Positions 1,230 to 64,000 of a DNA stretch of 64,000 nt are shown here, one piece after another; positions within the stretch are counted from its first letter, which is position 1, and each line of letters begins with the position of its first letter. This DNA is from Lampris incognitus (Eukaryota > Chordata > Actinopteri > Lampriformes > Lampridae), in assembly GCF_029633865.1 (NCBI RefSeq), contig NC_079216.1, positions 69,669,167-69,733,166 on the forward strand, given 5' to 3'. The notes below the pieces were generated by a model. It saw only the letters and a program-made list of their open reading frames with translations. It had not been told where the DNA came from and made no database searches. Both the position numbers and the translations under genes were made by a program.

Positions 1230-1254
1230 CACTAAGGACTTAACCTTCAGCGGG

Positions 1255-37689: not shown

Positions 37690-38000
37690 TAAGTGAGGGA
37701 TTGGGCAGGTTTAGGGGTTGGGGTTAGGGTCAGGGTTAGGTTTTGGGTAAGGGTTGGGGTTGTGGGTTATACATTGTATTTATGTAGCACTGGCCTCCTG
37801 ATCTGAGGGATGGTGTGATGGAGAAGGCTGCGGTCCCTCCTGCCAGGGACGAAGGTTCAATTCCCAGACAGAGTACAAGAGCAGAGGAAGGAGTGGTCTA
37901 ATAGAGTTGGGTTAAAAGGGGAGGCTACACGGATCCCTGGACGAGAAGGTCCCCCGGGTTAAGTTATGAGTTTAAGTTAAATACTGAGGTAAAATCTAGA
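37690..38000 (-). mobile_element. Family C: telomere-type repeat joined to a short repeat with the shared 3' motif
   Basis: Degenerate G-strand repeats (GGTTAGGGTCAGGGTTAGG, about 37700-37763) run directly into TATTTATGTAGCACTGGCCT and CCTGATCTGAGGG. The GCACTGGCCT...TCTGA core is the same motif found at the telomeric edge of families A and B. Further right is GGTTCAATTCCC (37854-37865), a B-box-like sequence, so part of it may be tRNA-derived on the plus strand. No coding potential. Confidence 0.45.
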
Positions 38001-38385
38001 AGCTGGAGGAGGAGTAAGTAAGTCCTAAGTGTTAAATTCTAAGTGCTAAAAATAAAGTGCTATTAGAAGACTCACTAGCATAGTAAAAAATAACAATAAT
38101 AAATAGGAATAATAATAAAGAAAAACTCTAAGCCATGTGATTACGTGCTCTAATATAAACCGAAAAATAAGTTATCCCCTCAAACCAGTCTAATAAAATT
38201 GCCTAAAATTTCATAAATAAAACACAATAAATAACAATTAATTAAAAGGGTAAATCGATGAATAAATAAATATGGGGTTGTCATCTTGTGCCAAGATTTA
38301 GACAAGATTGAGATCTTAAAGAAAGGGGGATCAGTGCAGCCAGATTGTAGATCCAGGGACAACCACACCAGGAGTGGGTCGGCCA

Positions 38386-38940
38386 TCTTTCAATCATCAT
38401 TAAGACCTCCTGGTACGGTGGTCCCAAGCCTGTGGATCCAAATTCTCTTTCTCTGCTCAACGGTCCAGCGGTCGTTGTTTTCTAGACCGGAAACTGTGAG
38501 GTGAGTGGGTGAAGTTGGAAATGTTTGACCCGGGTGGTGTTGAGTCGACCTTGCCTGATATTGTAGAGGTGTTGTGATAAGCTGGTGTGAATGGAGTGGT
38601 TGGTTTCTCCTATGTCATGTTTGTGACAGAGTGTGCATGTATTGATGTATACCACGTTGTTGGTGATGGAAGAAGAGCCTGGCGTGGGGAAAGATGTGAA
38701 TTCTGGATGAATTTTCTGTTTTTGTAGTGGTGGCCATAGTGCAGTTGGGGTGTGGGTCTATGGTCAGCGAATTGGGATCTAGTGAGTAATGGTTGAAGGC
38801 TCTTGCTTTTTCTGTAGGCTGAGATGATTTTGTGATTGTGAAAAGCTGGGTGTTGAGACTGTAATATGGCAAAGTTGTTTGATTGTACGATGAAGTGCTG
38901 TAATTTTGTGTGAAAAAGAGGAAACAACGTATGAGTTGCG
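38386..38940 (-). pseudogene. PLE ORF2 3' part (linker and GIY-YIG), diverged and frameshifted
   Basis: The minus-strand frame 38927-38615 reads LQSQHPAFHNHKIISAYRKS, then DHRPTPQLHYGHHYKNRKFI. After a frameshift it continues NNVVYI..CTLCHKHDIGET, the endonuclease start. It aligns along its length with the family A ORF2 C-terminus but is clearly more diverged than the other chain members. Its distal (right) edge at about 38940 is cut off and followed by telomere-type repeats. It is the oldest PLE link of the chain. Confidence 0.75.
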
Positions 38941-38947
38941 GTGTATT

Positions 38948-39110
38948 CTAGGGTTAGGGTCTGGGTTAGCTTTGGGTTAAGGGTTCGGTTAGGGCCTAGG
39001 TGTTAGGGTTAGTTTGGATTAGGGGGTTACAGTTGGGTTTGGGTTATGGTTTATACTCGGGTGCACTGGTCTGAGGGTTAGGAGTTGGGGTTAGGGTTGG
39101 GATTCAGGGT
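38948..39110 (+). repeat. Degenerate telomeric repeats with an embedded short element end
   Basis: About 160 bp of TTAGGG variants (TAGGGTTAGGGTCTGGGTTAG and similar). Within it, near 39047-39075, TTTATACTCGGGTGCACTGG TCTGAGGGTTAGG contains the shared GCACTGG...TCTGA motif and returns straight to TTAGGG-type repeats. This looks like a very short, 5'-truncated attachment. Confidence 0.7.
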
Positions 39111-40010
39111 GTCAATAAATGACTTCGTTTGCACTGGCCTACGGTGTCTGAACTAGTCCCCCCAATGGGTAAAGATGGTTGCTCGCAGATGCATGGACAT
39201 GAGCAAACGGGCCACCATAATTAATCATCATTATTGAGGCCTCCCGGTGCAGTCGTCCCGAGCTTGTGGATCCACTGTTTTTCAGCTCTCTTCCTCTGCC
39301 CCACGGTCCAGTGATCGTTATTTTCAAGGCCAGAGATGAGGAGGTGGGAGGAGGGGTGCGCCTGGAAGTGTGTGACTAGGGGGGTACGAAGTTTGCCTTC
39401 CCTGATGTTGTGTATGTGCTGTGAGAGTCGTGTATGTATAGAGTGTCGGGTTTCCCCAATGTAGTGTTTATCGCAGAGGGTGCATGTGATGATGTAAACG
39501 ACGTTTGTGGTGTTGACGGAGAATGAGCCCAAGGTGGGCATAGCTGTATTGGTGTGTGGGTTGTGGATGTATTTTCTGTTTCTGTAGTGGTGTGCATATT
39601 GTAATTGGGGTGTGGGTCTGTGATCGGAGAATTGGGATTTGACCAGTATGTTGTGGAGGCTCTTGTTTTTTCTGTAAGCGGATATGATGTTATTGTTGTG
39701 GAAAGCCGGGTGCTGGGACTGTAAACTGGAGAAATTGTTCTTTATGGCATGGTGGAGACAGGTTATTTTGTGTGAAAAGGTGGAGATGAGAGGTATGAAG
39801 TGCCGCGGCGGGGTATGGTTGAGGTGTGAGCTAATTGTGGCGGTGTGTTGTGGGCCCGAGCTGCCTCTCGCTACAGGGGGGTTGGGATACAGACCGTCAT
39901 TGGGGAAGGGGGAAGAGTTAGGTTCAGGATAAGGACCGGGGGTAGGGTCATGGTTAGGGTTATGGTTAGGATAAGGACAGGGGGTAGGGTCATGGTTAGG
40001 GTTAGGGGGT
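39108..40010 (-). pseudogene. Family A element truncated within the telomere-like linker of ORF2
   Basis: The 3' UTR (39108-39220) has the shared motif at 39131-39155. The minus-strand frame 39221 to about 39920 encodes the complete GIY-YIG region (NVVYIITCTLCDKHYIGETR, ending TTAPGGLNNDD) and the conserved region before it. The element ends at the Pro-Asn tract: after about 39925 the sequence is only G-strand-like repeat, including a direct duplication of about 37 bp, and then the next element's 3' end. The remaining coding stretch has no frameshift. Confidence 0.75.
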
Positions 40011-40011
40011 T

Positions 40012-41236
40012 AGGGTTGGGGTTTGGGGTGTCGGTAATTGACTTCATTTGCACTGGCCTACGGTGTCTGAACTAGTCCCCCCAATGGATAAAGATGGTTG
40101 TTGGCGGATGCATGGACATGAGCAAACGGGCCGGCGTAATTAACCGTCATCATTGAGGCCTCCCGGTGCGGTCGTCCGGAGCTTGTGGATCCACTGTTTT
40201 TCCGCTCTCTTCCTCTGCCCCACGGTCCAGTGATCGTTGTTTTCAAGGCCAGAGATGATGAGGTGGGAGGAGGGGTGCGTTTGGAAGTGTGTGATTAGGG
40301 GGGTACGAGGTTTGCCTACCCTGATGTTGTGTATGTGTTGTGAGAGTCGTGTATGTATCGAGTGTCGGGTTTCCCCAATGTAGTGTTTGTCGCAGAGGGT
40401 GCATGTGATGATGTAAACAACGTTTGTGGTGTTGACGGAGAATGAGCCCAAGGTGGGCATAGCTGTGTTGGTGTGTGGGTTGTGGATGTATTTTCTGTTT
40501 CTGTAGTGGTGTGCATATTGTAATTGGGGTGTGGGTCTGTGATCGGAGAATTGGGATTTGACCAGTATGTTGTGGAGGCTCTTGTTTTTTCTGTAAGCGG
40601 ATATGATGTTGTGGAAAGCCGGGTGCTGGGACTGTAAACTGGAGAAACTGTTCTTTATGGCATGGTGGAGACCGGTTATTTTGTGTGAAAAGGTGGAGAT
40701 GAGAGGTATGAAGTGTCGCGGCGGGGTATGGTTGAGGTGTGAGCTAATTGTGGCGGTGTGTTGTGGGCCCGAGCTGCCTCTTGCTACAGGGGGGTTGGGA
40801 TACAGACCGTCATTGGGGAAGGGGGAAGAGTTAGGTTCAGGATAAGAACCGGGGGTAGGGTCATGGTTAGGGTTATGGTTAGGGTTGGGGTTATGGTTAG
40901 GGTTGGGGTTAGGGTTATGGTTAGGATAAGGATGGGGTTGGGGGTGGTTAAGATCAGGATAAGGGTGGGAGGGGATGTCAGGGCTGGGGTTTAGAGGATC
41001 CAGGCCTTGGTTCAGGTAGGGGGAAGAGGGTGGAGGCAGCTCGGATCTGGGAACCTGGGTTGGCGGGGGCTGGGGCCGATGGGGGGGTGAGCGAATGGGA
41101 ACGGGAGGAGCCAAGGTGTTGCTCTTAATGGTGCGGAGGAAGCGTTTGGAGTAGCCTCGTTTACGGAGGCTTTTGAACAGAATGTGGGTGGCTGAGTGGA
41201 AATCTGAGATGTCTGAGCAAATGCGATGGAAACGGA
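40012..41236 (-). pseudogene. Family A element, 5'-truncated after the RT core, capped by TTAGGG
   Basis: The 3' UTR is at 40012-40139. ORF2 is open from 41236 to 40140 and includes the region just after the RT core (FKSLRKRGYSKRFLRTIK), the Pro-rich linker with a short Pro-Asn tract (about 40855-40930) and the full GIY-YIG domain. It has one in-frame 6-bp deletion (HN-IISAYR) relative to its relatives. At 41236 the coding sequence stops within RFHRIC... text and GTTAGGGTTAGG begins with no spacer. The RT catalytic core is absent. Confidence 0.85.
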
Positions 41237-41262
41237 TGAGTTGTTAGGGTTAGGTTTGGGTT
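41237..41262 (+). repeat. Short telomeric repeat tract at an element junction
   Basis: GTTAGGGTTAGGTTTGGGTTAG joins the 5'-truncated family A element on the left to the 3' end of family B copy 1 on the right. Confidence 0.85.
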
Positions 41263-42150
41263 AGCGTTTGTGCCCTGGGGCCATCGCTGATGTTTAGGTG
41301 CACTGGCCTAAAGGTCTGAGGGGGTAATGGGGGAGCAGGGCAAATCGGTCTGCTAGACCTTAAGACGGGGAGGGCGGTCTATGATGTAGCCCATTGTCGC
41401 GACGTTTCGGTACTTCTTACCTTCATCAGGCGTGGGCTACGCTTAAAAATCAAAAAATAATATAATTGTCCACCATATAATTGTCCATCAAAAAAAAGTG
41501 TAGCCACCATTAGTCCAACTCAACGGCCAGCGGGTGAAACAGCTCTCTGCCGGACTCCGTCGGAAAGAGCGATCGGAGCGCCGGTTCAAGCCACAAAATG
41601 GATGCCATCTCCGGTGGGCGGGCCCTGCCCCATGAAAATGGTAGGCGTCCCCCACTGCACTTTTCGTATCAGTGAGGGACGCCATGGGAAGGAGGAGGGG
41701 GGATACGGAGAGGAAAAAAACGTGTGTGTCTTTTTCTCTCCTCAATTGGAAAAAACCGAAAGACAGACCAAACAAAGGGGGGGAAAAAAGGGTGGATCTA
41801 AGGTCGGACGGTGAGCATGGATCACACCAAGTCCATCTCACCGAACCGCGGGTAACACAAGCTTCCGGGCACTCCGGTTTAAGCTGTTAAAATAGACATT
41901 TCCGGTCGGCGGGCGCTTCCTATGGAAATGGTGGCGTCCCTCGCTAATACCATCGCAGTTGCGAGAGACGCCACAGGGAGGAGAGAGGAGGGGGGGGGGT
42001 AACACCGCTGTGTTTCTTGGGTGGAAAAAACCGAAAGAGAGAAAAACAGAAAAAAATAAAAATAACTAAAGGTGGGGATCTAATGCCGGACGATGAGCAG
42101 GGCGAATGTGCACACTTGGACGGTGAACATGGGCTAAAAAACGGGGGGGG
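41263..42150 (-). mobile_element. Family B copy 1: non-coding hammerhead-bearing telomeric element
   Basis: About 890 bp with no convincing coding region. In the minus (RNA) sense it has a ~700-bp upstream part holding two diverged ~300-bp repeats, each with a long hairpin. An AT-rich stretch with TTATATTATT follows at about 41455-41470, then a hammerhead ribozyme (41386-41440), ~85 nt of further sequence, and the shared 3' motif AGACCTTTAGGCCAGTGCAC at about 41290-41312. It ends against C-rich telomeric complement. It shares the motif and ribozyme design with family A but no ORF. The right edge passes into G-rich and TTAGGG repeats. Confidence 0.7.
41386..41440 (-). ncRNA. Hammerhead ribozyme (type I, minimal stem III) in family B copy 1
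   Basis: On the minus strand: GTAGCCCACGC, then the core CTGATGA, stem II GGTA-AGAAG-TACC, then GAA, ACGT, C (cleavage base), and GCG-ACAA-TGGGCTAC. Stem I pairs GUAGCCCA with UGGGCUAC and CGC with GCG around an ACAA bulge. Stem III is only the palindrome ACGU with no loop, a form reported for PLE and retrozyme hammerheads that can act as dimers. All core nucleotides are present. Confidence 0.85.
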
Positions 42151-42356
42151 GGGTTTAGGGTTAGGGAAAACGGGTCGGTTTAGTCCTGGCCTGGGTTAGG
42201 CTTTCGGTGTGGGTTATGATTAGGGTTAGGTTTAGGGTGTCAGCCTGGGTTAGGCTTTCGGTGTGGGTTATGATTAGGGTTAGGTTTAGGGTGTCAGCCT
42301 GGGTTAGGCTTTTCGGCGTGGGTTCACGTTTAGGGTTAGGGGGTTGGGGTTGGGTT
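42151..42356 (+). repeat. Telomere-like repeat with three copies of a ~57-bp unit
   Basis: TTAGGG variants are organised into a larger unit, CCTGGGTTAGGCTTTCGGTG followed by TGGGTTATGATTAGGGTTAG and GTTTAGGGTGTCAG. It is repeated at about 42190, 42247 and 42297 with decay in the third copy. Confidence 0.8.
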
Positions 42357-42399
42357 AGGGTTGGGGTTTGGGGTGTCGGTAATTGACTTTATTTGCACT
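42357..42399 (-). mobile_element. Minimal (~43-bp) family A 3' end capped by telomeric repeat
   Basis: GGGGTTTGGGGTGTCGGTAA and TTGACTTTATTTGCACTGG are the last bases of a family A element in RNA sense. The copy stops within the shared motif and is followed directly by (TTAGGG)5. A second, longer family A 3' end then starts at about 42427. It reads as an attachment in which only about 40 nt were copied. Confidence 0.8.
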
Positions 42400-42426
42400 G
42401 GGTTAGGGTTAGGGTTAGGGTTAGGG
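42400..42426 (+). repeat. Telomeric repeats (TTAGGG)n
   Basis: Four to five clean TTAGGG units between the minimal element end and the next family A fragment. Confidence 0.9.
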
Positions 42427-42752
42427 TTGGGGTTTGGGGTGTCGGTAATTGACTTTATTTGCACTGGCCTACGGTGTCTGAACTAGTCCCCCCAATGGAT
42501 AAAGATGGTTGTTGGCGGGTGCATGGACATGAGCAAACAGGGGCCGGCGTAATTAAACGTCATCATTGAGGCCTCCCGGTGCGGTCGTCCGGAGCTTGTG
42601 GATCCACTGTTTTTCCGCTCTCTTCCTCTGCCCCACGGTCCAGTGATCGTTGTTTTCAAGGCCAGAGATGATGAGGTGGGTGGAGGGGTGCGTTTGGAAG
42701 TGTGTGATTAGGGGGGTCCGAAGTTTGCCTTCCCCGATGTTGCGTATGTGTT
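42427..42752 (-). pseudogene. Family A 3' fragment truncated in the GIY-YIG domain
   Basis: The 3' UTR with the shared motif is at about 42450-42560, and the ORF2 C-terminus (ending TTAPGGLNDDV) runs on to about 42752. It stops within sequence corresponding to the HIHNI segment and is followed immediately by GGGTTAGGGTTAGG. The catalytic GIY-YIG part is lost. Confidence 0.8.
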
Positions 42753-42824
42753 GGGTTAGGGTTAGGGGGGTTAGGGTTAGGGGTTAGGGTTAGGGTTAGG
42801 TGTTAGGGTTAGCGTTTGTGTTTT
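42753..42824 (+). repeat. Telomeric repeats between chain members
   Basis: TTAGGG and TTAGGGG variants joining the truncated family A fragment to family B copy 2. Confidence 0.85.
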
Positions 42825-42924
42825 GGGGTCATCGCTGATGTTTAGGTGCACTGGCCTAAAGGTCTGAGGGGGTAATGGGGGCGCAGGACAAATCGGTCTG
42901 CTAGACCTTAAGACGGGGAGGGCG
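42825..42924 (-). mobile_element. Family B copy 2, truncated to ~100 bp
   Basis: Only the 3'-terminal part of family B (shared motif at about 42849-42870, up to AAGACGGGGAGGGCGG) remains. It stops before the hammerhead and is followed directly by TTAGGG repeats. Confidence 0.8.
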
Positions 42925-42961
42925 GTTAGGGTTAGGGTTAGGGAGGGTTAGGGTTAGGTGT
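42925..42961 (+). repeat. Telomeric repeats between family B copies 2 and 3
   Basis: TTAGGGTTAGGGTTAGGGAGG and related units; about 37 bp. Confidence 0.85.
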
Positions 42962-43865
42962 TAGGGTTAGCGTTTGTGTTTTGGGGTCATCGCTGATGTT
43001 TAGGTGCACTGGCCTAAAGGTCTGAGGGGGTAATGGGGGAGCAGGACAAATCGGTCTGCTAGACCTTAAGACGGGGAGGGCGGTCTATGATGTAGCCCAT
43101 TGTCGCGACGTTTCGGTATGTCTTACCTTCATCAGGCGTGGGCTACGCTTTAAAAATCGAAAAATAAAAAAATAATATAATTGTCCACCATATAATTGTC
43201 CGTCAAAAAAAAGTGTGTAGCCACCATTAGTCCAACTCAACGGCCAGCGGGTGAAACTGCTCTCTGCCGGACTCCGTCGGAAAGAGTGATCGGAGCGCCG
43301 GTTCAAGCCTTAAAATGGATGCCATCTCCGGTGGGCGGGCCCTGCCCCATGAAAATGGTAGGCGTCCCCCACTGCACTCTTCGTATCAGTGAGGGACGCC
43401 ATAGGAAAGAGGAGGTGGGACCAGGAGAGAGAGAAAAAAGTGTGTGTTTTCTCCTCTCCTCAATTGGAAAAAACCGAAAAATAGATAAAACAAAGGGGGG
43501 AAAAAAGGAAAATCTAAGGTCGGACGGTGAGCATGGATCACACCAAGTCCATCTCACCGAACCGCGGGTAACACAAGCTTCCGGGCACTCCGGTTTAAGC
43601 TGTTAAAATAGACATTTCCGGTCGGCGGGCGCTTCCTATGGAAATGGTGGCGTCCCTCGCTAATACCATCGCAGCAGCGAGAGACGCCACAGGGAGGAGA
43701 GAGGAGGGGGGGGGTAACACCGCTGTGTGTTTCTTAGGTGGAAAAAACCGAAAGAGAGAGAAACAGAAAAAAATAAAAATAACTAAAGGTGGGGATCTAA
43801 TGCCGGACGATGAGCAGGGCGAATGTGCACACTTGGACGGTGAACATGGGCTAAAAAACGGGGGG
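42962..43865 (-). mobile_element. Family B copy 3, full length
   Basis: Collinear with family B copy 1 over about 900 bp with scattered substitutions and small indels. It contains the shared 3' motif (about 43002-43022), the hammerhead (43092-43146), both ~300-bp internal repeats with hairpins, and the G-run at its right edge. No coding potential. It is joined on both sides to telomeric repeats. Confidence 0.75.
43092..43146 (-). ncRNA. Hammerhead ribozyme in family B copy 3
   Basis: Same architecture as the copy at 41386-41440. The only change is in stem-loop II, GGTA-AGACA-TACC instead of GGTA-AGAAG-TACC: the loop changes and the stem is kept. Core CTGATGA and GAA plus ACGTC are intact. 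Confidence 0.85.
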
Positions 43866-44075
43866 GGGGGGTTTAGGTTTAGGGAAAACGGGTCGGTTTA
43901 GTCCTGGCCTGGATTAGGCTCTCGGTGTGGGTTATGATTAGGGTTAGGTTTAGGGTGTCAGCCTGGGTTAGGCTTTCGGTGCGGGTCATGATCAGGGTTA
44001 GGTTTAGGGTGTCAGGGTTAGGGGTTAGGGGTTAGGGTTAGGGGTTAGGGGTTAGGGTTGGGTTAGGGTTGGGGT
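43866..44075 (+). repeat. Telomere-like repeats between family B copy 3 and family A copy 1
   Basis: A G10-run, the same CCTGG(A/G)TTAGGCT unit as at 42190, then TTAGGG and TTAGGGG variants reaching the family A 3' end. Confidence 0.8.
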
Positions 44076-44194
44076 TTGGGGTGTCGGTAATTGACTTTAT
44101 TTGCACTGGCCTACGGTGTCTGAACTAGTCCCCCCAATGGATAAAGATGGTTGTTGGCGGATGCATGGACATGAGCAAACAGGGGCCGGCGTAA

Positions 44195-46876: not shown

Positions 46877-47431
46877 TGTTGGAAGATATTGCGGGCTGTG
46901 GACGCTGTCCAGTGGAGGTTATCTTTTTCCGTGGTGAAGGTGTCATGTGGGATTTCTGCCAGGAAGGGGAGGTGTGTGGCTATGGTGTTGTTAATGATTT
47001 TCAAATTGTCCCGGTGGGTTGGCGGGAGCCGTGAGGAGTAATTTATAATGGGGAAGTAAATGTCTGCATTTGGGAAGGTGATTTTGGCCTGTCTATAAAG
47101 TGCTCTGAGCTGTTTTATGGAGGTTTGTTTTGCGTCCCGGTCCCTGTTGTTGAGGCCAATTGAGAATACCGCGATTTTGGTGTCCGGGTAAATCGGTGCC
47201 TTTTCGCATACTTTCAGAAAAGTATACAGCGTGGCTCCCGGATAACTGTCGAGTTGTATTTCGGGGTTGTGGTGAGGGGGGATCCTATTGATGTTTGAAT
47301 CACCAAGGATAATGATGGGTCTACGGGGTTTAAAATGCCAGGCTGTTATTTTAAGGTGCGCTCTCGCTATGTGGCAGGTGGGTCTGAATGGAGATTGGCG
47401 GAGGGGGGGTGTGCCCAGCACCCGGGCAAAA
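46843..47431 (-). pseudogene. PLE ORF1 C-terminal part (SGNH hydrolase), copy 1, 5'-truncated
   Basis: About 193 codons, from APGARH-like text after the truncation point through the whole SGNH domain (GDSN, GLNN, DNLH) to the stop. The domain is intact and differs from copies 2-4 at a few residues (for example WHFKP for WNFKP). The slippery heptamer is kept at 46855-46861. The protein lacks its N-terminal and helical regions because the element is cut at 47431. Confidence 0.85.
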
Positions 47432-47540
47432 GGTTAGGGTTAGGGTTAGGGTTAGGGTTAGGGTTAGGGTTAGGGTTAGGGGGTTAGGGTTAGGGTTAGG
47501 GGGTTAGGGTTAGGGTTAGGGTTAGGGTTGGGTTAGGGTT
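47432..47540 (+). repeat. Telomeric (TTAGGG)n tract
   Basis: About 110 bp of mostly perfect TTAGGG with three TTAGGGGG interruptions. It is the cleanest telomeric array in the window and lies between the 5'-truncated copy 1 and the complete copy 2. Its last units (TTGGGTTAGGGTTGGGGTTT) merge with the complement of the element's C-rich 3' end, so the boundary is within about 20 bp. Confidence 0.95.
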
Positions 47541-47565
47541 GGGGTTTGGGGTGTCGGTAATTGAC

Positions 47566-47571
47566 TTTATT
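47566..47571 (-). terminator. AATAAA poly(A) signal at the family A 3' end
   Basis: AATAAA in RNA sense lies 4 nt after the shared AGGCCAGTGCA motif and about 18 nt before the C-rich stretch CCCCAAACCCCAACCCTAAC. Cleavage at a usual distance would fall in the C-rich stretch. The same arrangement is at 44096-44101, 53396-53401 and 59246-59251. Confidence 0.6.
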
Positions 47572-47664
47572 TGCACTGGCCTACGGTGTCTGAACTAGTC
47601 CCCCCAATGGATAAAGATGGTTGTTGGCGGGTGCATGGACATGAGCAAACAGGGGCCGGCGTAA

Positions 47665-52640: not shown

Positions 52641-52718
52641 CCGATCAAAGAAGTGGGAGCACAACTCTAATCGGAAAATTCCTTTTTAAAAAAAGAAGCG
52701 ATACCCGAGCGCATCGGA

Positions 52719-52769
52719 GTTCAAACACCCAACGTTTCGCAACTAGACGTTGCTTCATCAGAGGTGAAC
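52719..52769 (-). ncRNA. Hammerhead ribozyme (type I, minimal stem III) in family A copy 2
   Basis: Minus strand: GTT-CACCT, core CTGATGA, stem II GCAAC-GTCTA-GTTGC, GAA, ACGT, T (cleavage base), GGGTG-TTTG-AAC. Stem I pairs CACCU with GGGUG and GUU with AAC around a UUUG bulge, the same plan as in family B with a completely different stem sequence, which supports it by covariation. Cleavage would fall between 52731 and 52730. The cleavage base is U (GUU), which is allowed but usually slower than GUC. Confidence 0.85.
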
Positions 52770-52793
52770 AGGCAGAGAGGACAAGCCAAGGTG

Positions 52794-52943
52794 TATATAT
52801 AGTGTGTGTGGACGCGGGAGCCCCCTCCCCCTTCCGGGACAAACGCGTCCAATCAGCCCGGCGGCAACACCGCTGCGCCAACCCCATACGCCACTTCGTA
52901 TTTTGAATCTCGGCGGGGCAGGAGACGCAGCCCCCTGATTGGT
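52794..52943 (-). promoter_or_regulatory. Pol II-type promoter of family A (TATA and CCAAT boxes)
   Basis: On the minus strand CACTATATATACACC (TATA at 52794-52801) lies about 30 nt upstream of the first base of the hammerhead, so the expected start site is near 52770. Farther upstream are GACCAATCAG (CCAAT at 52938-52942) and a reversed CCAAT (about 52849-52853) within GC-rich DNA. The same block is at 58624-58773 in copy 3. Confidence 0.6.
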
Positions 52944-53010
52944 CATTGATCCCGGAAGGACAGAGGGGCAAAGTAACTATGTGTAGCTATGTGTGTGAGC
53001 AAACTCCCAC

Positions 53011-53183
53011 GCCCATGTGGTGTGGCGGATAGCGCGCCCGCCCGTCAGCCCAACGGGCCGCGATCGAGTCCCGCAGGCGGCAGAAAACGGAGCGCCACCC
53101 CCACCCACCCATCAACCAAACATCACAACTATTATTAATTTATTTTTTTATTTTATTATTTTTTTTATTTTTTTATTTATTTT

Positions 53184-53190
<7 letters not shown>
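53011..53190 (+). mobile_element. tRNA-like (SINE-like) segment in the upstream region of family A
   Basis: On the plus strand TGGTGTGGCGG (53018-53028) fits a Pol III A box and CGATCGAGTCC (53061-53071) a diverged B box. The text between can fold an anticodon-like arm (GCCCG / CGGGC). A T-rich tail follows. Orientation is opposite to the element. The copy at 58841-59010 differs by several transitions. Confidence 0.5.

Positions 53191-53214
<24 letters not shown>
53191..53214 (+). repeat. (TG)n microsatellite in the upstream region of family A
   Basis: About 12 TG units here and about 23 at 59019-59064 in copy 3, one of the main length differences between the tandem units. Confidence 0.9.
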
Positions 53215-53494
53215 GGGTGGAATGGAGTGGGGAAAGAGGGTGAATACAGAAGGAATCTGATATGGTGAGAGAATGTGGAGGTCGTTTTTACGTAGGGTTT
53301 CCGGATTATCTGAGTTGCAGGGGGGAGTCCAGATCCGTGGCACTGGCTGGATTAGGGTTGGGTTAGGGTTGGGGTTTGGGGTGTCGGTAATTGACTTTAT
53401 TTGCACTGGCCTACGGTGTCTGAACTAGTCCCCCCAATGGATAAAGATGGTTGTTGGCGGGTGCATGGACATGAGCAAACAGGGGCCGGCGTAA

Positions 53495-56221: not shown

Positions 56222-58470
56222 TGTTGGAAGATATTGCGGGCTGTGGACGCTGTCCAGTGGAGGTTATCTTTTTCCGTGGTGAAGGTGTCATGTGGGATTT
56301 CTGCCAGGAAGGGGAGGTGTGTGGCTATGGTGTTGTTAATGATTTTCAAATTGTCCTGGTGGGTTGGCGGGAGCCGTGAGGAGTAATTTATAATGGGGAA
56401 GTAAATGTCTGCATTTGGGAAGGTGATTTTGGCCTGTCTGTAAAGTGCTCTGAGCTGTTTTATGGAGGTTTGTTTTGCGTCCCGGTCCCTGTTGTTGAGG
56501 CCAATTGAGAATACCGCGATTTTGGTGTTCGGGTAAATCGGTGCCTTTTCGCATACTTTCAGAAAAGTATACAGCGTGGCTCCCGGATAACTGTCGAGTT
56601 GTATGTCGGGGTTGTGGTGAGGGGGGATCCTATTGATGTTTGAATCACCCAGGATAATGATGGGTCTACGGGGTTTAAAATTCCAGGCTGTTATTTTAAG
56701 GTGCGCTCTCGCTATGTGGTAGGTGGGTCTGAATGGAGATTGGCGGAGGGGGGGTGTGCCCAGCGCCCGGGCAAACGGTGTGGTAGGGGATAGCGGGTGT
56801 GTGGGGAGCCGATTGTCTATTTCTGGTGTCGCGGCCCGCGGACCGGGGTGGCCAGGCAGCGAGGCCCCACCATCTTGTTGGGTGGAGGGTTCAGAATGGG
56901 CTCTTGTTGCGGCCATATCGACCTTCTGCGTCCCGCTCATCATGGTTGTTTCACCCTTTTCACCCTGTGTTTTTTTGAGATGGCTGGGAGAGGTTTGCTG
57001 CCCAACCGAGCCGGTCCGCCCGCCGGGGAGATCTGTGGGGGATAGAGAGAGGGGAAGAATTGAGTCCTCCGTCGTTACGGCCACGTTAGACTCCCTGAGG
57101 GGTCCGTCCAAGGTGGTAGTCGCAAAGTCCGGGGTGGTGTGTGGTGGTGTTACTGTCTGGGGTGGCGCATGGACCTGAGCGTGGCTGTCCCGCAGGGCGG
57201 TCAGTGGTTTTAGCGGTCCGCTACGGGGTTGGGTGGTGGGTGTTGGGGTTACTTGGGGTGTTGTGATGGGTAGTGGGACTGAGGAGGGCTGTGACGACTT
57301 TTTTGGCTGGTCTGCTGTTTGGCAGGTTGCCGTCGTCTGTGTGAGTGGTGAGTGTCGGTTTGTTGGGGCAATTGATGTGGGGCGGGCGATTTCTTCGGAG
57401 AGGGAAGCGCGTGGACCTAGGTAAAGTGAATATAGTTTGTATGGGGCCCTTGCCCTCGGTAGGGGTGGAAAGTCTTCTTCTGTCCCCCCTTGGATGAGTG
57501 GCCGAGATTGTGTATTTGCGGTGAGTGTGTGATGAGCGCGGGGAGGGGGAGGAGGAGGAGGGGGAGGAGGGGGGGGGCAGGGTTGTGGGTCGGCTGGTGT
57601 GCGATTGTGTGGGTGAATGTCTAAGATGTGTTCTACTGTGTGAATGGTGTCCTGTTTGAGTTTTTGGCCATATTTCTTCCTAGCCCAACCAATAGCAATC
57701 CGGAGGGCTAAGGCATCTTTGGGTGTGTCAGTGAAGGTTGCCATAGTGGCCCGGTAATGTTCCTGTAAAATGGCCATGTTGTTTTCCATCCAGGAGATGG
57801 TGTTTTCTGCCACTCTGTTGTGTGTGTGTTGTGTGGGAGCTGCCGGTTTGATGAAGGCCGTGAGTTTGTTAACTTGTCTCATCATACCGGGGGGAAATGT
57901 TTTCGTGGCTATGGCCTCATCTATGACACGTTTGTGGTATGTGGCCTGAATGAGCCTATAATACCGTTTGCTGTTGTGTCTAGTTTCTGGGGTCGACGGC
58001 TGGATGGGTCTGTAGGTGAGTGGCTGCCGAGATTGTGTGCGTGTGCAAGGGTATCCGGTCCGCATGTGAGGCGGTGTGTGCGTGTGCGCGTGTACGCGCG
58101 CATGTCGTGATCTATGTGTTGGGTGTGTGGCGATGGACATGTGTGGTCGTGGATGGAAGTCGCGTGCGTGTGCTCTGTGTGTTGGCTGTCCGTTCATACC
58201 TGTTAACTCCAATGCGTCGGTCCGCTCCTGAAAAAAAGAAGAATTAGACTGGTGGCGGGCTCCTACCTCAGTACGCGCCGGCCCGGCGTCCCGGCCGCCG
58301 CCCCGGGCCCGGCCGCCGCCGAAACCACGTCCCCCGGCTTTCGTCGAAGTCTCCGACCGCGTGGACGTCTCCGGGCGAGCGGCCCAGCACGCCCCGGGCC
58401 GGGCGCGCGGCCGAGGAAAAGAGTCCCCCACCGCCGTTTTGAAATTAATAATGTTGCGACAGCCAATCAT
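56188..58470 (-). CDS. PLE ORF1, copy 3: helical domain, Pro-rich region and SGNH hydrolase
   Basis: Identical in plan to ORF1 of copy 2. It is two codons longer because Arg-Ala follows the Pro run (PPPRAHHT here, PPPPHHT in copy 2), from differences in the GGA-rich DNA near 57535-57575. First ATG at 58470; alternative start at 58200. GDSN, GLNN and DNLH catalytic blocks are intact. Confidence 0.85.
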   Translation of the reverse strand: MIGCRNIINFKTAVGDSFPRPRARPGACWAARPETSTRSETSTKAGGRGFGGGRARGGGRDAGPARTEVGARHQSNSSFFQERTDALELTGMNGQPTHRAHARDFHPRPHMSIATHPTHRSRHARVHAHTHTPPHMRTGYPCTRTQSRQPLTYRPIQPSTPETRHNSKRYYRLIQATYHKRVIDEAIATKTFPPGMMRQVNKLTAFIKPAAPTQHTHNRVAENTISWMENNMAILQEHYRATMATFTDTPKDALALRIAIGWARKKYGQKLKQDTIHTVEHILDIHPHNRTPADPQPCPPPPPPPPPPPPRAHHTLTANTQSRPLIQGGTEEDFPPLPRARAPYKLYSLYLGPRASLSEEIARPTSIAPTNRHSPLTQTTATCQTADQPKKSSQPSSVPLPITTPQVTPTPTTQPRSGPLKPLTALRDSHAQVHAPPQTVTPPHTTPDFATTTLDGPLRESNVAVTTEDSILPLSLSPTDLPGGRTGSVGQQTSPSHLKKTQGEKGETTMMSGTQKVDMAATRAHSEPSTQQDGGASLPGHPGPRAATPEIDNRLPTHPLSPTTPFARALGTPPLRQSPFRPTYHIARAHLKITAWNFKPRRPIIILGDSNINRIPPHHNPDIQLDSYPGATLYTFLKVCEKAPIYPNTKIAVFSIGLNNRDRDAKQTSIKQLRALYRQAKITFPNADIYFPIINYSSRLPPTHQDNLKIINNTIATHLPFLAEIPHDTFTTEKDNLHWTASTARNIFQHWCKQLNLTSA

Positions 58471-58548
58471 CCGATCAAAGAAGTGGGAGCACAACTCTAA
58501 TCGGAAAATTCCTTTTTAAAAAAAGAAGCGATACCCGAGCGCATTGGA

Positions 58549-58599
58549 GTTCAAACACCCAACGTTTCGCAACTAGACGTTGCTTCATCAGAGGTGAAC
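58549..58599 (-). ncRNA. Hammerhead ribozyme in family A copy 3
   Basis: Core, stem II, ACGU stem III and stem I are the same as at 52719-52769. The only nearby change (GCATTGGAGT for GCATCGGAGT) lies just outside stem I. Predicted cleavage is between 58561 and 58560. Confidence 0.85.
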
Positions 58600-59013
58600 A
58601 GGCAGAGAGGACAAGCCAAGGTGTATATATAGTGTGTGTGGACGCGGGAGCCCCCTCCCCCTTCCGGGACAAACGCGTCCAATCAGCCCGGCGGCAACAC
58701 CGCTGCGCCAACCCCATACGCCACTTCGTATTTTGAATCTCGGCGGGGCAGGAGACGCAGCCCCCTGATTGGTCATTGATCCCGGAAGGACAGAGGGGCA
58801 AAGTAACTATGTGTAGCTATGTGTGTGAGCAAACTCCCACGCCCATGTGGTGTGGCGGACAGCGCGCCCGCCCGTCAGCCCAGCGGGCCGCGATCGAGCC
58901 CCGCAGGCGGCAGAAAACGGAGCGCCACCCCCACCCACCCATCAATCAAACATTATAATTATTATTAATTTATTTTTTTATTTTATTATTTTTTTTATTT
59001 TTTTATTTATTTT

Positions 59014-59066
<53 letters not shown>

Positions 59067-59344
59067 GTGGAATGGAGTGGGGAAAGAGGGTGAATACAGA
59101 AGGAATCTGATATGGTGAGAGAATGTGGAGGTCGTTTTTACGTAGGGTTTCCGGATTATCTGAGTTGCAGGGGGGAGTCCAGATCCGTGGCACTGGCTGG
59201 ATTAGGGTTGGGTTAGGGTTGGGGTTTGGGGTGTCGGTAATTGACTTTATTTGCACTGGCCTACGGTGTCTGAACTAGTCCCCCCAATGGATAAAGATGG
59301 TTGTTGGCGGGTGCATGGACATGAGCAAACAGGGGCCGGCGTAA

Positions 59345-62077
59345 TTAAACGTCATCATTGAGGCCTCCCGGTGCGGTCGTCCGGAGCTTGTGGATCCACT
59401 GTTTTTCCGCTCTCTTCCTCTGCCCCCCGGTCCAGTGATCGTTGTTTTCAAGGCCAGAGATGATGAGGTGGGAGGAGGGGTGCGTTTGGAAGTGTGTGAT
59501 TAGGGGGGTACGAAGTTTGCCTACCATGATGTTGTGTATGTGTTGTGAGAGTCGTGTATGTATCGAGTGTCGGGTTTCCCCAATGTAGTGTTTGTCGCAG
59601 AGGGTGCATGTGATGATGTAAACGACGTTTGTGGTGTTGACGGAGAATGAGCCCAAGGTGGGCATAGCTGTGTTGGTGTGTGGGTTGTGGATGTATTTTC
59701 TGTTTCTGTAGTGGTGTGCATATTGTAATTGGGGTGTGGGTCTGTGATCGGAGAATTGGGATTTGACCAGTATGTTGTGGAGGCTCTTGTTTTTTCTGTA
59801 AGCGGATATGATTTTATTGTTGTGGAAAGCCGGGTGCTGGGACTGCAGACTGGAGAAACTGTTCTTTATGGCCTGGTGGAGACCGGTTATTTTGTGTGAA
59901 AAGGTGGAGATGAGAGGTATGAAGTGCCGCGGCGGGGTAGGGTTGAGGTGTGAACTAATTGTGGCGGTGTGTTGTGGGCCCGAGCTGCCTCTCGCTACAG
60001 GGGGGTTGGGATGCAGGCCTTCATTGGGGAAGGGGGAAGAGTTAGGTTCAGGATAAGGACCGGGGGTAGGGTCATGGTTAAGTTTAGGGTTAGGGTCGTG
60101 GTTAGGGTTAGGGTTAGGGTTGGGGCTATGATTAGGGTTGGGGTTATGGTTAGGGTTAGGGTTGGGGTTAGGGTTGGGGTTATGGTTAGGGTTAGGGTTG
60201 GGGTTAGGGTTAGGATAAGGATGGGGTTGGGGGTGGTTAAGATCAGGATAAGGGTGGGAGGGGGTGTCAGGGCTGGGGTTTAGAGGATCCAGGCCTTGGT
60301 TCAGGTAGGGGGAAGAGGGTGGAGGCAGCTCGGATCTGGGAACCTGGGTTGGCGGGGGCTGGGGCCGATGGGGGGGTGAGCGAATGGGAACGGGAGGAGC
60401 CAAGGTGTTGTTTTTATTTTTAATGGTGCGGAGGAAGCGTTTGGAGTAGCCTCGTTTACGGAGGCTTTTGAACAGAATCTGGGTGGCTGAGTGGAAGTCT
60501 GAGATGTCTGAGCAAATGCGACGGAAACGGATGAGTTGTGATTTGACTATGCCTATGAACGTGTGTCTTGGATGGTAACTATTTTTGTGTAATAGTGAGT
60601 GTGTGTCCGTTGGTTTGAAATAAACTTTGGTCTGGAGTGTTTTCTGCGTGGTGTTGAGTGGCCTGAAATAGACTGTGGTGTCCAGGAAGTTGATTTGTTC
60701 CGATTCTATGGTGTGTTTGATTTTGATGGAGGGGTGATGATTATTGAGAATGTGGATGAAGTCTGAGAATTGTGCCAGGTCGTGTGGCCAGATTCCGAAA
60801 ATGTCGTCTAAAAACCGAAGGTAGAGGGTGGGTTTTAGGGGGCATTTGTCCAAGGCCTCTCGCTCCCATTCACTCATGTAGAGGTTGGCATAGGATGGTG
60901 CGAATCTCTGGCCCATGGCCGTCCCGGTCACCTGGAGATAATATTGGTTGTTGAATAGGAAGTCGTTGTTTTTCAGGCACAATTCTAGGAGTTGAAGGAT
61001 TTCTGCATCCGGTCGTGTGTCGTCCGGGTTGCGAGAAAAAACGGATGAGATGACTTGTAAACCCAGTTGTGTGTTAATATTGGTATACAGGCTATCCACG
61101 TCAATTGTGAATACATACGCGTTGGCGGGGACGGCCATGGAGCGGATGATTTCCAGGAAGTGGTATGTGTCTTTAATGTAGCTGGGGTGTCGGGTGGAGA
61201 GAGGGCCCAAGAAGTGGTCGATGTATTGGCTAATGTGGTAGGTGGCGCTATTGCAGTCCGAGACTATAGGGCGGCCGGGAGGAACCTCAAAGGGAACGGT
61301 CCAAGTTTGTGGCTCTTTGTGGATTTTTGGTAGGAGATAAAAATAGCGGGGTCGTGGGTTCTGTGGTCCGAATAGATAGTGTTTTTGTTTGGCCGAAATG
61401 TATTTTTTGTTATGTAGCGACTGAATAATGGTCCGGATTTGAATTTGGGTCTGGGGTTGTATTGTATCGTCCAGGGGTCTATAGTAGGTGGTGTTGTTTA
61501 GCTGTCTGTTCGCCTCCAGTGAGTATTGTTGTCTGTCCATGATTACAATTTTGCTGCCTTTGTCTGCCGGTTTGATAATGATGTTGGGGTGATGGATTAG
61601 TTGTTTGAGCGCTGCGCGTTCGGCCCCCGGTAGGTTGTCTGGGACATCCGCCGGGGGACGGTAGCGGCGTAGAGTCAGTCTATCTTGGAGGATGAGGTGT
61701 TGTGTTTCCGGGTCTAGGGTGGTCTTGTCCGGTTCCCAGGTGGACGGGTGGCTGAATTGTTTGTGTTGTCGTTGTTGTTGGGAGTCGGGATGGAAATAAT
61801 TTTTGAGTTTTATTCGTCTGTGGTAATTGTGTAGGTCCCTATGAAGTTGCTCCCAGTCAAAGTTGGTGGGACGTGGGATGAAGGTGAGCCCCCTCTCCAA
61901 GAGATGGCGTTGTGGTGTGGTGGGAGTGAACAATGTTGCCAGATTACAAATTTGTGATTCTGAATTCCAGACCAGGTCCCGATTGCGGTGTGTGTCCGGT
62001 CGTGGGTATGCTGGGGTGTGCTCGTCCCGTGCCCGGTTAGGCTTCAGGCCGACGTTAAATTTAATTGTTTGCACCAA
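59345..62077 (-). CDS. PLE ORF2, copy 4: RT, Pro-Asn linker, GIY-YIG (910 codons)
   Basis: Same as copies 2 and 3 with another arrangement of Pro-Asn units in the linker; the total length equals copy 2. Fully open with all motifs. First codon TTG; slippery heptamer at 62056-62062 in the ORF1 overlap. Confidence 0.93.
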   Translation of the reverse strand: MVQTIKFNVGLKPNRARDEHTPAYPRPDTHRNRDLVWNSESQICNLATLFTPTTPQRHLLERGLTFIPRPTNFDWEQLHRDLHNYHRRIKLKNYFHPDSQQQRQHKQFSHPSTWEPDKTTLDPETQHLILQDRLTLRRYRPPADVPDNLPGAERAALKQLIHHPNIIIKPADKGSKIVIMDRQQYSLEANRQLNNTTYYRPLDDTIQPQTQIQIRTIIQSLHNKKYISAKQKHYLFGPQNPRPRYFYLLPKIHKEPQTWTVPFEVPPGRPIVSDCNSATYHISQYIDHFLGPLSTRHPSYIKDTYHFLEIIRSMAVPANAYVFTIDVDSLYTNINTQLGLQVISSVFSRNPDDTRPDAEILQLLELCLKNNDFLFNNQYYLQVTGTAMGQRFAPSYANLYMSEWEREALDKCPLKPTLYLRFLDDIFGIWPHDLAQFSDFIHILNNHHPSIKIKHTIESEQINFLDTTVYFRPLNTTQKTLQTKVYFKPTDTHSLLHKNSYHPRHTFIGIVKSQLIRFRRICSDISDFHSATQILFKSLRKRGYSKRFLRTIKNKNNTLAPPVPIRSPPHRPQPPPTQVPRSELPPPSSPYLNQGLDPLNPSPDTPSHPYPDLNHPQPHPYPNPNPNPNPNHNPNPNPNPNPNHNPNPNHSPNPNPNPNHDPNPKLNHDPTPGPYPEPNSSPFPNEGLHPNPPVARGSSGPQHTATISSHLNPTPPRHFIPLISTFSHKITGLHQAIKNSFSSLQSQHPAFHNNKIISAYRKNKSLHNILVKSQFSDHRPTPQLQYAHHYRNRKYIHNPHTNTAMPTLGSFSVNTTNVVYIITCTLCDKHYIGETRHSIHTRLSQHIHNIMVGKLRTPLITHFQTHPSSHLIISGLENNDHWTGGQRKRAEKQWIHKLRTTAPGGLNDDV

Positions 62078-64000
62078 TGTTGGAAGATATTGCGGGCTGT
62101 GGACGCTGTCCAGTGGAGGTTATCTTTTTCCGTGGTGAAGGTGTCATGTGGGATTTCTGCCAGGAAGGGGAGGTGTGTGGCTATGGTGTTGTTAATGATT
62201 TTCAAATTGTCCTGGTGGGTTGGCGGGAGCCGTGAGGAGTAATTTATAATGGGGAAGTAAATGTCTGCATTTGGGAAGGTGATTTTGGCCTGTCTGTAAA
62301 GTGCTCTGAGCTGTTTTATGGAGGTTTGTTTTGCGTCCCGGTCCCTGTTGTTGAGGCCAATTGAGAATACCGCGATTTTGGTGTTCGGGTAAATCGGTGC
62401 CTTTTCGCATACTTTCAGAAAAGTATACAGCGTGGCTCCCGGATAACTGTCGAGTTGTATGTCGGGGTTGTGGTGAGGGGGGATCCTATTGATGTTTGAA
62501 TCACCCAGGATAATGATGGGTCTACGGGGTTTAAAATTCCAGGCTGTTATTTTAAGGTGCGCTCTCGCTATGTGGTAGGTGGGTCTGAATGGAGATTGGC
62601 GGAGGGGGGGTGTGCCCAGCGCCCGGGCAAACGGTGTGGTAGGGGATAGCGGGTGTGTGGGGAGCCGATTGTCTATTTCTGGTGTCGCGGCCCGCGGACC
62701 GGGGTGGCCAGGCAGCGAGGCCCCACCATCTTGTTGGGTGGAGGGTTCAGAATGGGCTCTTGTTGCGGCCATATCGACCTTCTGCGTCCCGCTCATCATG
62801 GTTGTTTCACCCTTTTCACCCTGTGTTTTTTTGAGATGGCTGGGAGAGGTTTGCTGCCCAACCGAGCCGGTCCGCCCGCCGGGGAGATCTGTGGGGGATA
62901 GAGAGAGGGGAAGAATTGAGTCCTCCGTCGTTACGGCCACGTTAGACTCCCTGAGGGGTCCGTCCAAGGTGGTAGTCGCAAAGTCCGGGGTGGTGTGTGG
63001 TGGTGTTACTGTCTGGGGTGGCGCATGGACCTGAGCGTGGCTGTCCCGCAGGGCGGTCAGTGGTTTTAGCGGTCCGCTACGGGGTTGGGTGGTGGGTGTT
63101 GGGGTTACTTGGGGTGTTGTGATGGGTAGTGGGACTGAGGAGGGCTGTGACGACTTTTTTGGCTGGTCTGCTGTTTGGCAGGTTGCCGTCGTCTGTGTGA
63201 GTGGTGAGTGTCGGTTTGTTGGGGCAATTGATGTGGGGCGGGCGATTTCTTCGGAGAGGGAAGCGCGTGGACCTAGGTAAAGTGAATATAGTTTGTATGG
63301 GGCCCTTGCCCTCGGTAGGGGTGGAAAGTCTTCTTCCGTCCCCCCTTGGATGAGTGGCCGAGATTGTGTATTTGCGGTGAGTGTGTGATGAGCGCGGGGA
63401 GGGGGAGGAGGAGGAGGGGGAGGAGGGGGGGGGCAGGGTTGTGGGTCGGCTGGTGTGCGATTGTGTGGGTGAATGTCTAAGATGTGTTCTACTGTGTGAA
63501 TGGTGTCCTGTTTGAGTTTTTGGCCATATTTCTTCCTAGCCCAACCAATAGCAATCCGGAGGGCTAAGGCATCTTTGGGTGTGTCAGTGAAGGTTGCCAT
63601 AGTGGCCCGGTAATGTTCCTGTAAAATGGCCATGTTGTTTTCCATCCAGGAGATGGTGTTTTCTGCCACTCTGTTGTGTGTGTGTTGTGTGGGAGCTGCC
63701 GGTTTGATGAAGGCCGTGAGTTTGTTAACTTGTCTCATCATACCGGGGGGAAATGTTTTCGTGGCTATGGCCTCATCTATGACACGTTTGTGGTATGTGG
63801 CCTGAATGAGCCTATAATACCGTTTGCTGTTGTGTCTAGTTTCTGGGGTCGACGGCTGGATGGGTCTGTAGGTGAGTGGCTGCCGAGATTGTGTGCGTGT
63901 GCAAGGGTATCCGGTCCGCATGTGAGGCGGTGTGTGCGTGTGCGCGTGTACGCGCGCATGTCGTGATCTATGTGTTGGGTGTGTGGCGATGGACATGTGT
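62044..64000 (-). CDS. PLE ORF1, copy 4, N-terminus cut by the window edge
   Basis: Open from the window edge to the stop at 62044, with the helical region, Pro run (with the Arg-Ala variant of copy 3) and the complete SGNH domain. A Met at 63996 (MSIATHPTH) is internal when compared with copies 2 and 3 and is not the start. Confidence 0.85.
   Translation of the reverse strand, partial: HMSIATHPTHRSRHARVHAHTHTPPHMRTGYPCTRTQSRQPLTYRPIQPSTPETRHNSKRYYRLIQATYHKRVIDEAIATKTFPPGMMRQVNKLTAFIKPAAPTQHTHNRVAENTISWMENNMAILQEHYRATMATFTDTPKDALALRIAIGWARKKYGQKLKQDTIHTVEHILDIHPHNRTPADPQPCPPPPPPPPPPPPRAHHTLTANTQSRPLIQGGTEEDFPPLPRARAPYKLYSLYLGPRASLSEEIARPTSIAPTNRHSPLTQTTATCQTADQPKKSSQPSSVPLPITTPQVTPTPTTQPRSGPLKPLTALRDSHAQVHAPPQTVTPPHTTPDFATTTLDGPLRESNVAVTTEDSILPLSLSPTDLPGGRTGSVGQQTSPSHLKKTQGEKGETTMMSGTQKVDMAATRAHSEPSTQQDGGASLPGHPGPRAATPEIDNRLPTHPLSPTTPFARALGTPPLRQSPFRPTYHIARAHLKITAWNFKPRRPIIILGDSNINRIPPHHNPDIQLDSYPGATLYTFLKVCEKAPIYPNTKIAVFSIGLNNRDRDAKQTSIKQLRALYRQAKITFPNADIYFPIINYSSRLPPTHQDNLKIINNTIATHLPFLAEIPHDTFTTEKDNLHWTASTARNIFQHWCKQLNLTSA

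Follow-up and report, generated by a model that had tools for sequence, protein, structure and literature searches.

Endonuclease-bearing Penelope-like elements and their probable attachment to chromosome ends in the fish Lampris incognitus

How does a chain of retroelements that all point one way, with telomeric repeat between several of them, come to lie near the end of a vertebrate chromosome? The question is raised by a stretch of 64,000 nucleotides from Lampris incognitus (the window; positions 69,669,167-69,733,166 of contig NC_079216.1, here C9, in an assembly of 1.48 Gb and 537 contigs), where the region from 37.7 to 64 kb is made up of Penelope-like elements (PLEs). We propose, with a probability of about 0.72, that an endonuclease-bearing PLE, which we call E, is added to the chromosome ends of this vertebrate by end priming on the C-rich tail of its RNA, that telomerase heals the resulting ends, and that a short non-autonomous element, N, uses the same route.

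Self-comparison, calling of open reading frames (ORFs) and blastn with an intact E copy (E9) and a non-autonomous reference copy (N7) resolve this region into 13 PLEs, all in one orientation with their sense on the minus strand: nine E copies and four short non-autonomous copies (E0b, N3, N6 and N7). An earlier note, made from the sequence alone, had claimed at least ten head-to-tail elements over about 26 kb, which is borne out; its single element type holds for the nine E copies, but four of the 13 represent a different, non-autonomous element (the type of E0b being unsure). The features, in their order along the window, are as follows.

37705-38937, minus strand: E0, the oldest copy, decayed and E-type, with a degenerate telomere-like 3' tail and ORF2 remnants; 70% identical to E9 over 38394-38922
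38990-39075, minus strand: E0b, a 3' tail alone, type unsure and grouped with the non-autonomous copies; telomere-like tail and GCACTGG box
39084-40012, minus strand: E1, a 5'-truncated E ending inside the telomere-like linker; 92.8% identical to E9, with 264 amino acids of ORF2 and no stops
40007-41243, minus strand: E2, a 5'-truncated E; 90.2% identical to E9 including linker gaps; junction GTTG/TTAGGG
41244-42340, minus strand: N3, non-autonomous, with a hammerhead and 54-bp telomere-like repeats at its 5' side; 94% identical to N7
42341-42399, minus strand: E4, an E 3' end of about 60 bp, then TTAGGG
42400-42438, plus strand: TTAGGG repeats of the E4/E5 interval
42418-42753, minus strand: E5, a 5'-truncated E whose tail merges into the preceding TTAGGG; 97.9% identical to E9
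42753-42816, plus strand: TTAGGG repeats of the E5/N6 interval
42792-42922, minus strand: N6, a 5'-truncated N; 99.3% identical to N7 over 135 bp
42924-42966, plus strand: TTAGGG repeats of the N6/N7 interval
42950-44020, minus strand: N7, the non-autonomous reference copy
44060-47431, minus strand: E8, an E truncated within ORF1, with ORF2 complete; 97.2% identical to E9
47432-47550, plus strand: TTAGGG array of the E8/E9 interval, the 3' tail of E9 included
47530-53350, minus strand: E9, full-length E and reference
53360-59200, minus strand: E10, full-length E; 99.2% identical to E9
59210-64000, minus strand: E11, an E running off the window; 99.7% identical to E9

In E0, tblastn recovers ORF2 in pieces that fall into three frames, one of them with 3 stops. 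The telomeric repeat is as strictly oriented as the elements, with 122 TTAGGG and 0 CCCTAA in positions 36,001-64,000, and TTAGGGTTAGGG occurs 37 times in the window, always on the plus strand, where 0.03 occurrences are expected.

The chain lies close to a chromosome end. C9 has 69,758,166 bases, the window stops 25 kb from its right end, and the last 2,500 bases are 99.4% TTAGGG, so that the chromosome end does lie to the right, as the earlier note had inferred; the placement of the contig that it had advised was thus run in part. The readable part between the window and the end of C9 (parts read N) contains a further two E-type copies, oriented like the others and 75.7% and 99.7% identical to E9. 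To see how far this arrangement extends over the genome, we used a 30-mer from the E 3' end, which, with up to 3 mismatches allowed, matched 423 times (289 times forward and 134 times in reverse; none with the reversed-pattern control), and we took positions and orientations from the 100 matches listed, all exact and all on contigs C1-C16. Of these, 93 are no more than 119 kb from a contig end, over 17 ends, although end zones of 150 kb make up 0.45% of C1-C16; the 46 at left ends (within 69 kb) are all on the minus strand and the 47 at right ends (within 119 kb) all on the plus strand. The proposed check, that element 3' ends always face the centromere, therefore gave 93 of 93 for the terminal copies listed. 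A survey of the left 10 kb of C1-C20 (five of these 20 contigs are shorter than 1 Mb) showed mirrored E or N arrays at eight (C1, C3, C5, C6, C11, C12, C14 and C16), while C13 and C15 start with N and ten have neither E nor N. Some contigs begin or end inside a PLE array and parts of the contig ends read N, as might be expected if the pattern were an assembly artefact of repeat-rich contig ends. We find this hardly credible in view of the single orientation at 17 ends, the clean 2.5-kb TTAGGG cap, the differing junctions, and a second contig, obtained independently from different material (locus L002, below), that has a telomere-like 3' untranslated region (UTR) and (CCCTAA)n at its start.

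The E unit is about 5.8 kb long, and its intact copies encode the following.

47665-50397, minus strand: ORF2 of E9, 910 amino acids, with reverse transcriptase (RT), linker and GIY-YIG endonuclease
48361-48558, minus strand: linker of ORF2, a telomeric (CCTAAC)n repeat in frame that encodes (Pro-Asn)n
50364-52664, minus strand: ORF1 of E9, 766 amino acids, with a C-terminal SGNH-like domain
52734-52761, minus strand: hammerhead core in the E9 leader, weak fold (z -1.35)
58564-58591, minus strand: hammerhead core in the E10 leader, weak fold (z -1.35)

The description of a compact, GIY-YIG-bearing PLE is thus upheld: the GIY-YIG domain scores 25.2 bits, above the Pfam cut-off of 22.6, the key residues of ORF2 are invariant across 19 aligned rows, and the Pfam search found no other nuclease in ORF2. 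RVT_1 reaches 20.2 bits, under its cut-off of 29.6, and the assignment to a PLE-type RT is backed by close relatives among 2,100 proteins. ORF1 scores 17.9 bits against Pfam GDSL, under the cut-off of 32.9; its predicted structure (the model from seven sequences, mean pLDDT 69, other models having scored worse) has 25 PDB matches at E up to 1e-3, to SGNH esterases including OatA, PAF acetylhydrolase and TesA. The (Pro-Asn)n linker, placed between the RT and the endonuclease, is telomeric repeat read in frame. The E9 linker uses CCT 18 and CCC 8 times for Pro and AAC 21 times and AAT once for Asn, whereas outside the linker all four Pro codons are used and AAC and AAT occur 38 and 14 times; linker sizes are 30 (E2), 42 (E8), 56 (E9), 54 (E10) and 56 (E11) amino acids. 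In relatives' linkers (46 of 120 extractable by pattern), Pro-Asn dipeptides number 63 against 27.5 expected, a comparison at the protein level. The idea of the linker as a truncation hot spot was dropped, as a single case (E1) is too few.

The RNA 3' end of E is a degenerate complement of the telomere, C-rich and, as the earlier note had claimed, on the proximal side of each copy, with a nearby GCACTGG box that is invariant in six representative 3' ends. Four hammerhead cores were found by core pattern against 0.02 expected, with a strong fold in N and a weak one in E, where 18 of 200 shuffles of the leader fold equally well; an Rfam search returned no hammerhead, even at E up to 1. By eye, tRNA-like A and B boxes are seen on the strand opposite to the element sense (53000-53080, 58830-58910 and 37830-37900, plus strand), and ARAGORN finds no tRNA there.

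The N element measures about 0.9-1.15 kb, has no ORF of 150 amino acids, and carries its hammerhead near the 3' tail.

41404-41429, minus strand: hammerhead core of N3, fold z -4.0
43110-43135, minus strand: hammerhead core of N7, fold z -4.3

N and E have the 3' box in common and also a similar 5' terminus, the latter seen in arrays elsewhere in the genome, and these matching terminal boxes suggest that N may be mobilised by E. Since the 5' terminus of those arrays is absent from N3 and N7, these two copies may be slightly truncated. Satellite-like N arrays of near-perfect units of about 1.15 kb, with 24 identical unit junctions, occupy the left ends of C1, C5 and C11. The 54-bp telomere-like tandem repeats at the 5' side extend over 42189-42340 in N3 and 43907-44015 in N7.

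Truncated 5' ends in the window are joined to telomeric repeat without spacer at 41,243, 42,399, 42,750, 42,922 and 47,431. The five junctions of this kind claimed earlier all exist and four run into TTAGGG repeats, but the first enters the telomere-like tail of the next element within about 10 nucleotides. Two further truncated copies with telomeric repeat elsewhere in the genome bring the total to seven; at the left end of C16 the junction comprises 438 nucleotides with 59 TTAGGG ahead of the next copy, and on C9 to the right of the window 209 nucleotides with 30 TTAGGG. The overlap with the telomere register at the window junctions is, in order, 2, 2, 1, 3 and 3 nucleotides (a mismatching base beside the break being ignored for E8), and over the six measurable junctions (2, 2, 1, 3, 3 and 5) it sums to 16 against a simulated mean of 5.3, a value reached in 2,925 of 200,000 simulations (P about 0.015). 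This overlap fits healing by telomerase.

Such junctions are what we would expect if the C-rich 3' stretch of the RNA paired with an exposed TTAGGG 3' end, whose free G-strand would prime synthesis, and if the RT of ORF2 then copied the RNA starting from the RNA 3' end. The new distal end, frequently 5' truncated, would be healed with TTAGGG by telomerase, and repeated rounds would build a one-way chain with the RNA 3' ends centromere-ward. N, with its matching terminal boxes, would take the same route in trans, and the arrays of complete units and the N satellites probably grew through recombination or because multimeric RNA was copied.

A chain that grows at its tip should be oldest at its base, and, over a 3' stretch common to the copies (254-324 sites), the divergence from E11 declines towards the distal side: 34.6% for E0, 8.7% for E1, 1.9% for E2, 2.2% for E5, 0.6% for E8 and 0 for E9 and E10, an order that 6 of 720 arrangements match equally well. 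E0 is decayed, and the frames of E1, E2, E5 and E8 are open; the open frames of E1, E2 and E5 led us to reject decay in place as the source of the gradient. Against E9, the ratio of non-synonymous to synonymous differences per site (pN/pS) in ORF2 is 0.31 for E1, 0.24 and 0.53 for two pieces of E2, and 0.29 for E8, which differs from E9 outside the linker by 16 synonymous and 15 non-synonymous changes. For the comparison among E9-E11 the linker was excluded, as its alignment inflates the count (7 synonymous and 0 non-synonymous between E9 and E10 with the linker included); outside it, E9-E11 differ by 0-1 synonymous changes in ORF2, 1-4 in ORF1 and no non-synonymous ones, and are too alike to judge selection. 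The ORF2 differences thus appear to be mostly under purifying selection, and because pN/pS is mostly low and the truncated copies keep open frames, most of the divergence would have arisen along working source lineages. Intact ORFs are present, and the family may still be active.

Not every copy is attached through TTAGGG. The E 3' junctions examined at contig ends begin at an identical tail in 18 of 18 cases, preceded by TTAGGG-rich repeats in seven (one being the E1 linker), by a tandem junction in eight, and by other or cut-off sequence in three. The tandem junction is 34 nucleotides long and invariant, in eight identical copies over six ends, and it joins the near-identical E9-E11 with no TTAGGG array between them, which corrects the earlier note on this point. 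Its invariance points to multimeric templates or to recombination between units, and E9-E11 may be the product of tandem amplification; the notion that they are necessarily separate retrotranspositions was dropped, as their ORF2 outside the linker shows 1 synonymous change (E9/E10). One could go further and suppose that a few old insertions were spread by subtelomeric exchange or break-induced replication, that the tandem units arose by unequal exchange, and that there is little attachment now. The identical tandem junction on six ends and the N satellite arrays would follow from this, as would the near-identity of E9-E11 outside the linker without non-synonymous changes, and copies exchanged in this way keep their orientation towards the end. 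We nevertheless regard it as improbable, because at least seven different truncation points are each joined to telomeric repeat, different element types occur within one chain, the frames of E1, E2 and E8 are open with pN/pS below 1, and interstitial copies start at the same 3' base.

Those interstitial copies, seven of the 100 matches listed, lie on C2 (three at about 0.25 Mb, one at 7.98 Mb and one at 45.16 Mb) and on C5 (two at 55.86 Mb). In the copy at 7.98 Mb and in one of those at 55.86 Mb a degenerate telomere-like minisatellite stands directly before the identical 3' tail, and the first of the three clustered copies begins 23 bp past a TTAGGG array. The flanks read therefore do not show many non-telomeric copies with target-site duplications and no TTAGGG, the pattern named beforehand as contrary to telomere attachment. 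Either the interstitial copies mark former ends, or the element can enter telomere-like repeats that lie elsewhere than at present ends, the endonuclease providing the means. At about 0.246 Mb on C2 (plus strand), the TTAGGG array and the three E copies point to the side opposite the contig end close by; an inversion, a fusion or a misjoin would give such an arrangement.

The same copies bear on a second way of priming. Telomere-specific insect long interspersed nuclear elements (LINEs) use nick-primed reverse transcription at telomeric repeats, and the GIY-YIG enzyme might likewise nick double-stranded TTAGGG or telomere-like repeats, with the nicked G-strand as primer and chromosome ends favoured since the repeat is there. 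The conserved GIY-YIG above its Pfam cut-off, the two interstitial copies directly on telomere-like minisatellite and the three-copy cluster after the TTAGGG array are in keeping with nicking, and the junctions it predicts are identical to those of end priming. Terminal growth agrees better with the proximal-to-distal age order and with the fact that no copy in the window has been inserted into the telomere-like linker of another, and the target of the only vertebrate PLE protein so far characterised is AT-rich DNA (PMC11167929). We consider nicking unlikely, though less so than the other alternatives to end priming.

Several observations weigh against end priming with telomerase healing. The element retains its GIY-YIG domain and the conserved residues in it, though end priming has no need of an endonuclease; a chromosome end is not strictly required, because interstitial copies with exact 3' ends exist; eight identical tandem junctions are unexpected from independent end additions; and the 17 ends do not amount to 17 independent events, because subtelomeric exchange also keeps orientation. 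The statistics of the register overlap are modest, the ORF2 pN/pS of E5 is 1.08 on few sites, and the ORF1 piece of E8 has 0.89 (2 synonymous and 6 non-synonymous changes).

How widespread are such elements? With an E-value limit of 0.001, a search with ORF2 gave 2,100 relatives, of which 120 were listed; the named ones among those listed are from fish (Solea, Larimichthys, Oryzias, Epinephelus, Chelmon, Pangasianodon and Salmo), and the closest are endonuclease-bearing fish PLEs, with a highest near-full-length identity of 58-59%. A Solea protein has a GDSL-like domain, under the cut-off, fused to an RT. In a collection of genome contigs, alignment with ORF2 found relatives encoded at six loci in records filed as bacterial, which are probably contaminating host DNA; the exact 3'-tail pattern had no match in that collection, and scans of a viral contig collection found no relatives. 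Loci L001 and L002, both distant relatives of fish type, encode an SGNH-like ORF1, an RT and a GIY-YIG domain and contain a hammerhead core; their 3' flanks are telomere-like in the sense seen in E, which counts in favour of the proposed attachment. A telomere-like 3' flank is present in L001, L002 and L004, was not seen in L005, and L003 and L006 have only 107 and 57 bases past the match. L001 as a whole has no excess of CCCTAA (7 against 5.1 expected), but its 3' flank does (4 against 0.5); the second L002 flank, which is cut off, is weaker (3 against 0.6 expected, reached by 15 of 1,000 shuffles). The start of L002, the side on which a truncation would be predicted, consists of (CCCTAA)n, but the material is whole-genome-amplified, and chimeras occur in such material. 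In a tree of 30 rows, which carries a long-branch warning, L002 is basal, L001 falls inside a 22-row clade with E9, and L004 belongs to a distant clade. L004 (4000-4261), a distant PLE, is Cys-rich ahead of the GIY-YIG, and its 3' flank has 42-bp repeats with CCCTAAACCCTAA, a TTTAGGG-type match.

Retroelements at or in telomeres with fixed polarity are known in TRAS/SART and HeT-A/TART, but these telomere-specific elements, which lack long terminal repeats (LTRs), have a non-LTR RT with an APE-type endonuclease, whereas ORF2 of E carries GIY-YIG. Among PLEs, endonuclease-deficient members prime from exposed ends and gain telomeric repeats on truncated 5' ends, and endonuclease-bearing ones form the other group (PMC3846280); the telomere-associated deficient members are Athena of bdelloids and others in fungi, protists and plants (PMC3846280, PMC12477314), and PLEs otherwise insert rather randomly in AT-rich DNA (PMC12477314). 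E resembles the Athena type in its PLE RT, its position at chromosome ends with one polarity and the telomeric repeats on seven truncated 5' ends, but Athena is without an endonuclease, whereas E has a conserved GIY-YIG and a fish host. The Terminons of bdelloid rotifers share with E a C-rich telomere-complementary RNA 3' end, hammerheads, a GDSL/SGNH esterase, telomeric 5' truncation and head-to-tail arrays, but they reach 40 kb, use Athena RTs and carry a hammerhead next to the 3' repeats, whereas in E the hammerhead is in the leader (PMC6431247). The C-rich end is found in both E and N, and the Terminon trait of a hammerhead near it in N only. Neptune PLEs have a Cys-rich domain between RT and endonuclease (PMC3846280); E has no Cys from ORF2 residue 549 to the CTLC of the GIY-YIG. 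Poseidon of the green anole is, like E, a vertebrate PLE with GIY-YIG, a hammerhead and tandem units, but it cleaves AT-rich DNA and begins copying within the RNA instead of at a 3' end complementary to the telomere (PMC11167929). The nearest precedent found is that of the lake sturgeon, with endonuclease-bearing GIY-YIG PLEs bounded by telomere-like repeats; these are described as degraded, random inserts, and the portion available gives no chain, orientation rule or terminal position (PMC12031113). In the literature searched, the primary Athena and Terminon papers being outside reach, we found no report of GIY-YIG PLEs capping vertebrate chromosomes, which is no proof of absence.

Elsewhere in the window (18892-24029, plus strand, and 16683-22864), three U3 snoRNA matches in Rfam (two strong, one weak) lie amid 175-182-bp tandem repeats that contain CCCTAA-like words, with 18 CCCTAA and 0 TTAGGG in 16-24 kb. 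At 452-5375 (plus strand) are broken LINE-like ORFs in which endonuclease and RT pieces were recognised by eye; the ORF ahead of them has a GDS motif resembling that of an SGNH domain.

The system of L. incognitus differs from the Athena and Terminon kind by its retained endonuclease, its vertebrate host, its satellite-like partner and its in-frame telomeric linker. Tentatively, and with more doubt than confidence, we suggest a wider picture in which telomerase shares the building of this vertebrate's chromosome ends with an endonuclease-bearing PLE and its satellite-like partner, the arrays forming a working subtelomere that can replace lost telomeric DNA; ORF2 would have taken in telomeric repeat as its in-frame linker, and a telomere-complementary 3' UTR would be ancestral to one clade of fish PLEs. 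A GIY-YIG family mostly at chromosome ends would break the rule that telomeric PLEs are those without an endonuclease and that endonuclease-bearing ones insert rather randomly in AT-rich DNA (PMC3846280, PMC12477314, PMC12031113), and it would bring telomere attachment of retroelements into vertebrates. In the lake sturgeon, a herpesvirus with TTAGGG ends is integrated beside the GIY-YIG PLEs bounded by telomere-like repeats and, if such PLEs mark chromosome ends, telomeric integration may explain this neighbourhood (PMC12031113). PLE and telomerase RTs are held to share ancestry (PMC3846280), and a vertebrate in which a PLE and telomerase seem to extend the same ends would make that link testable in cells.

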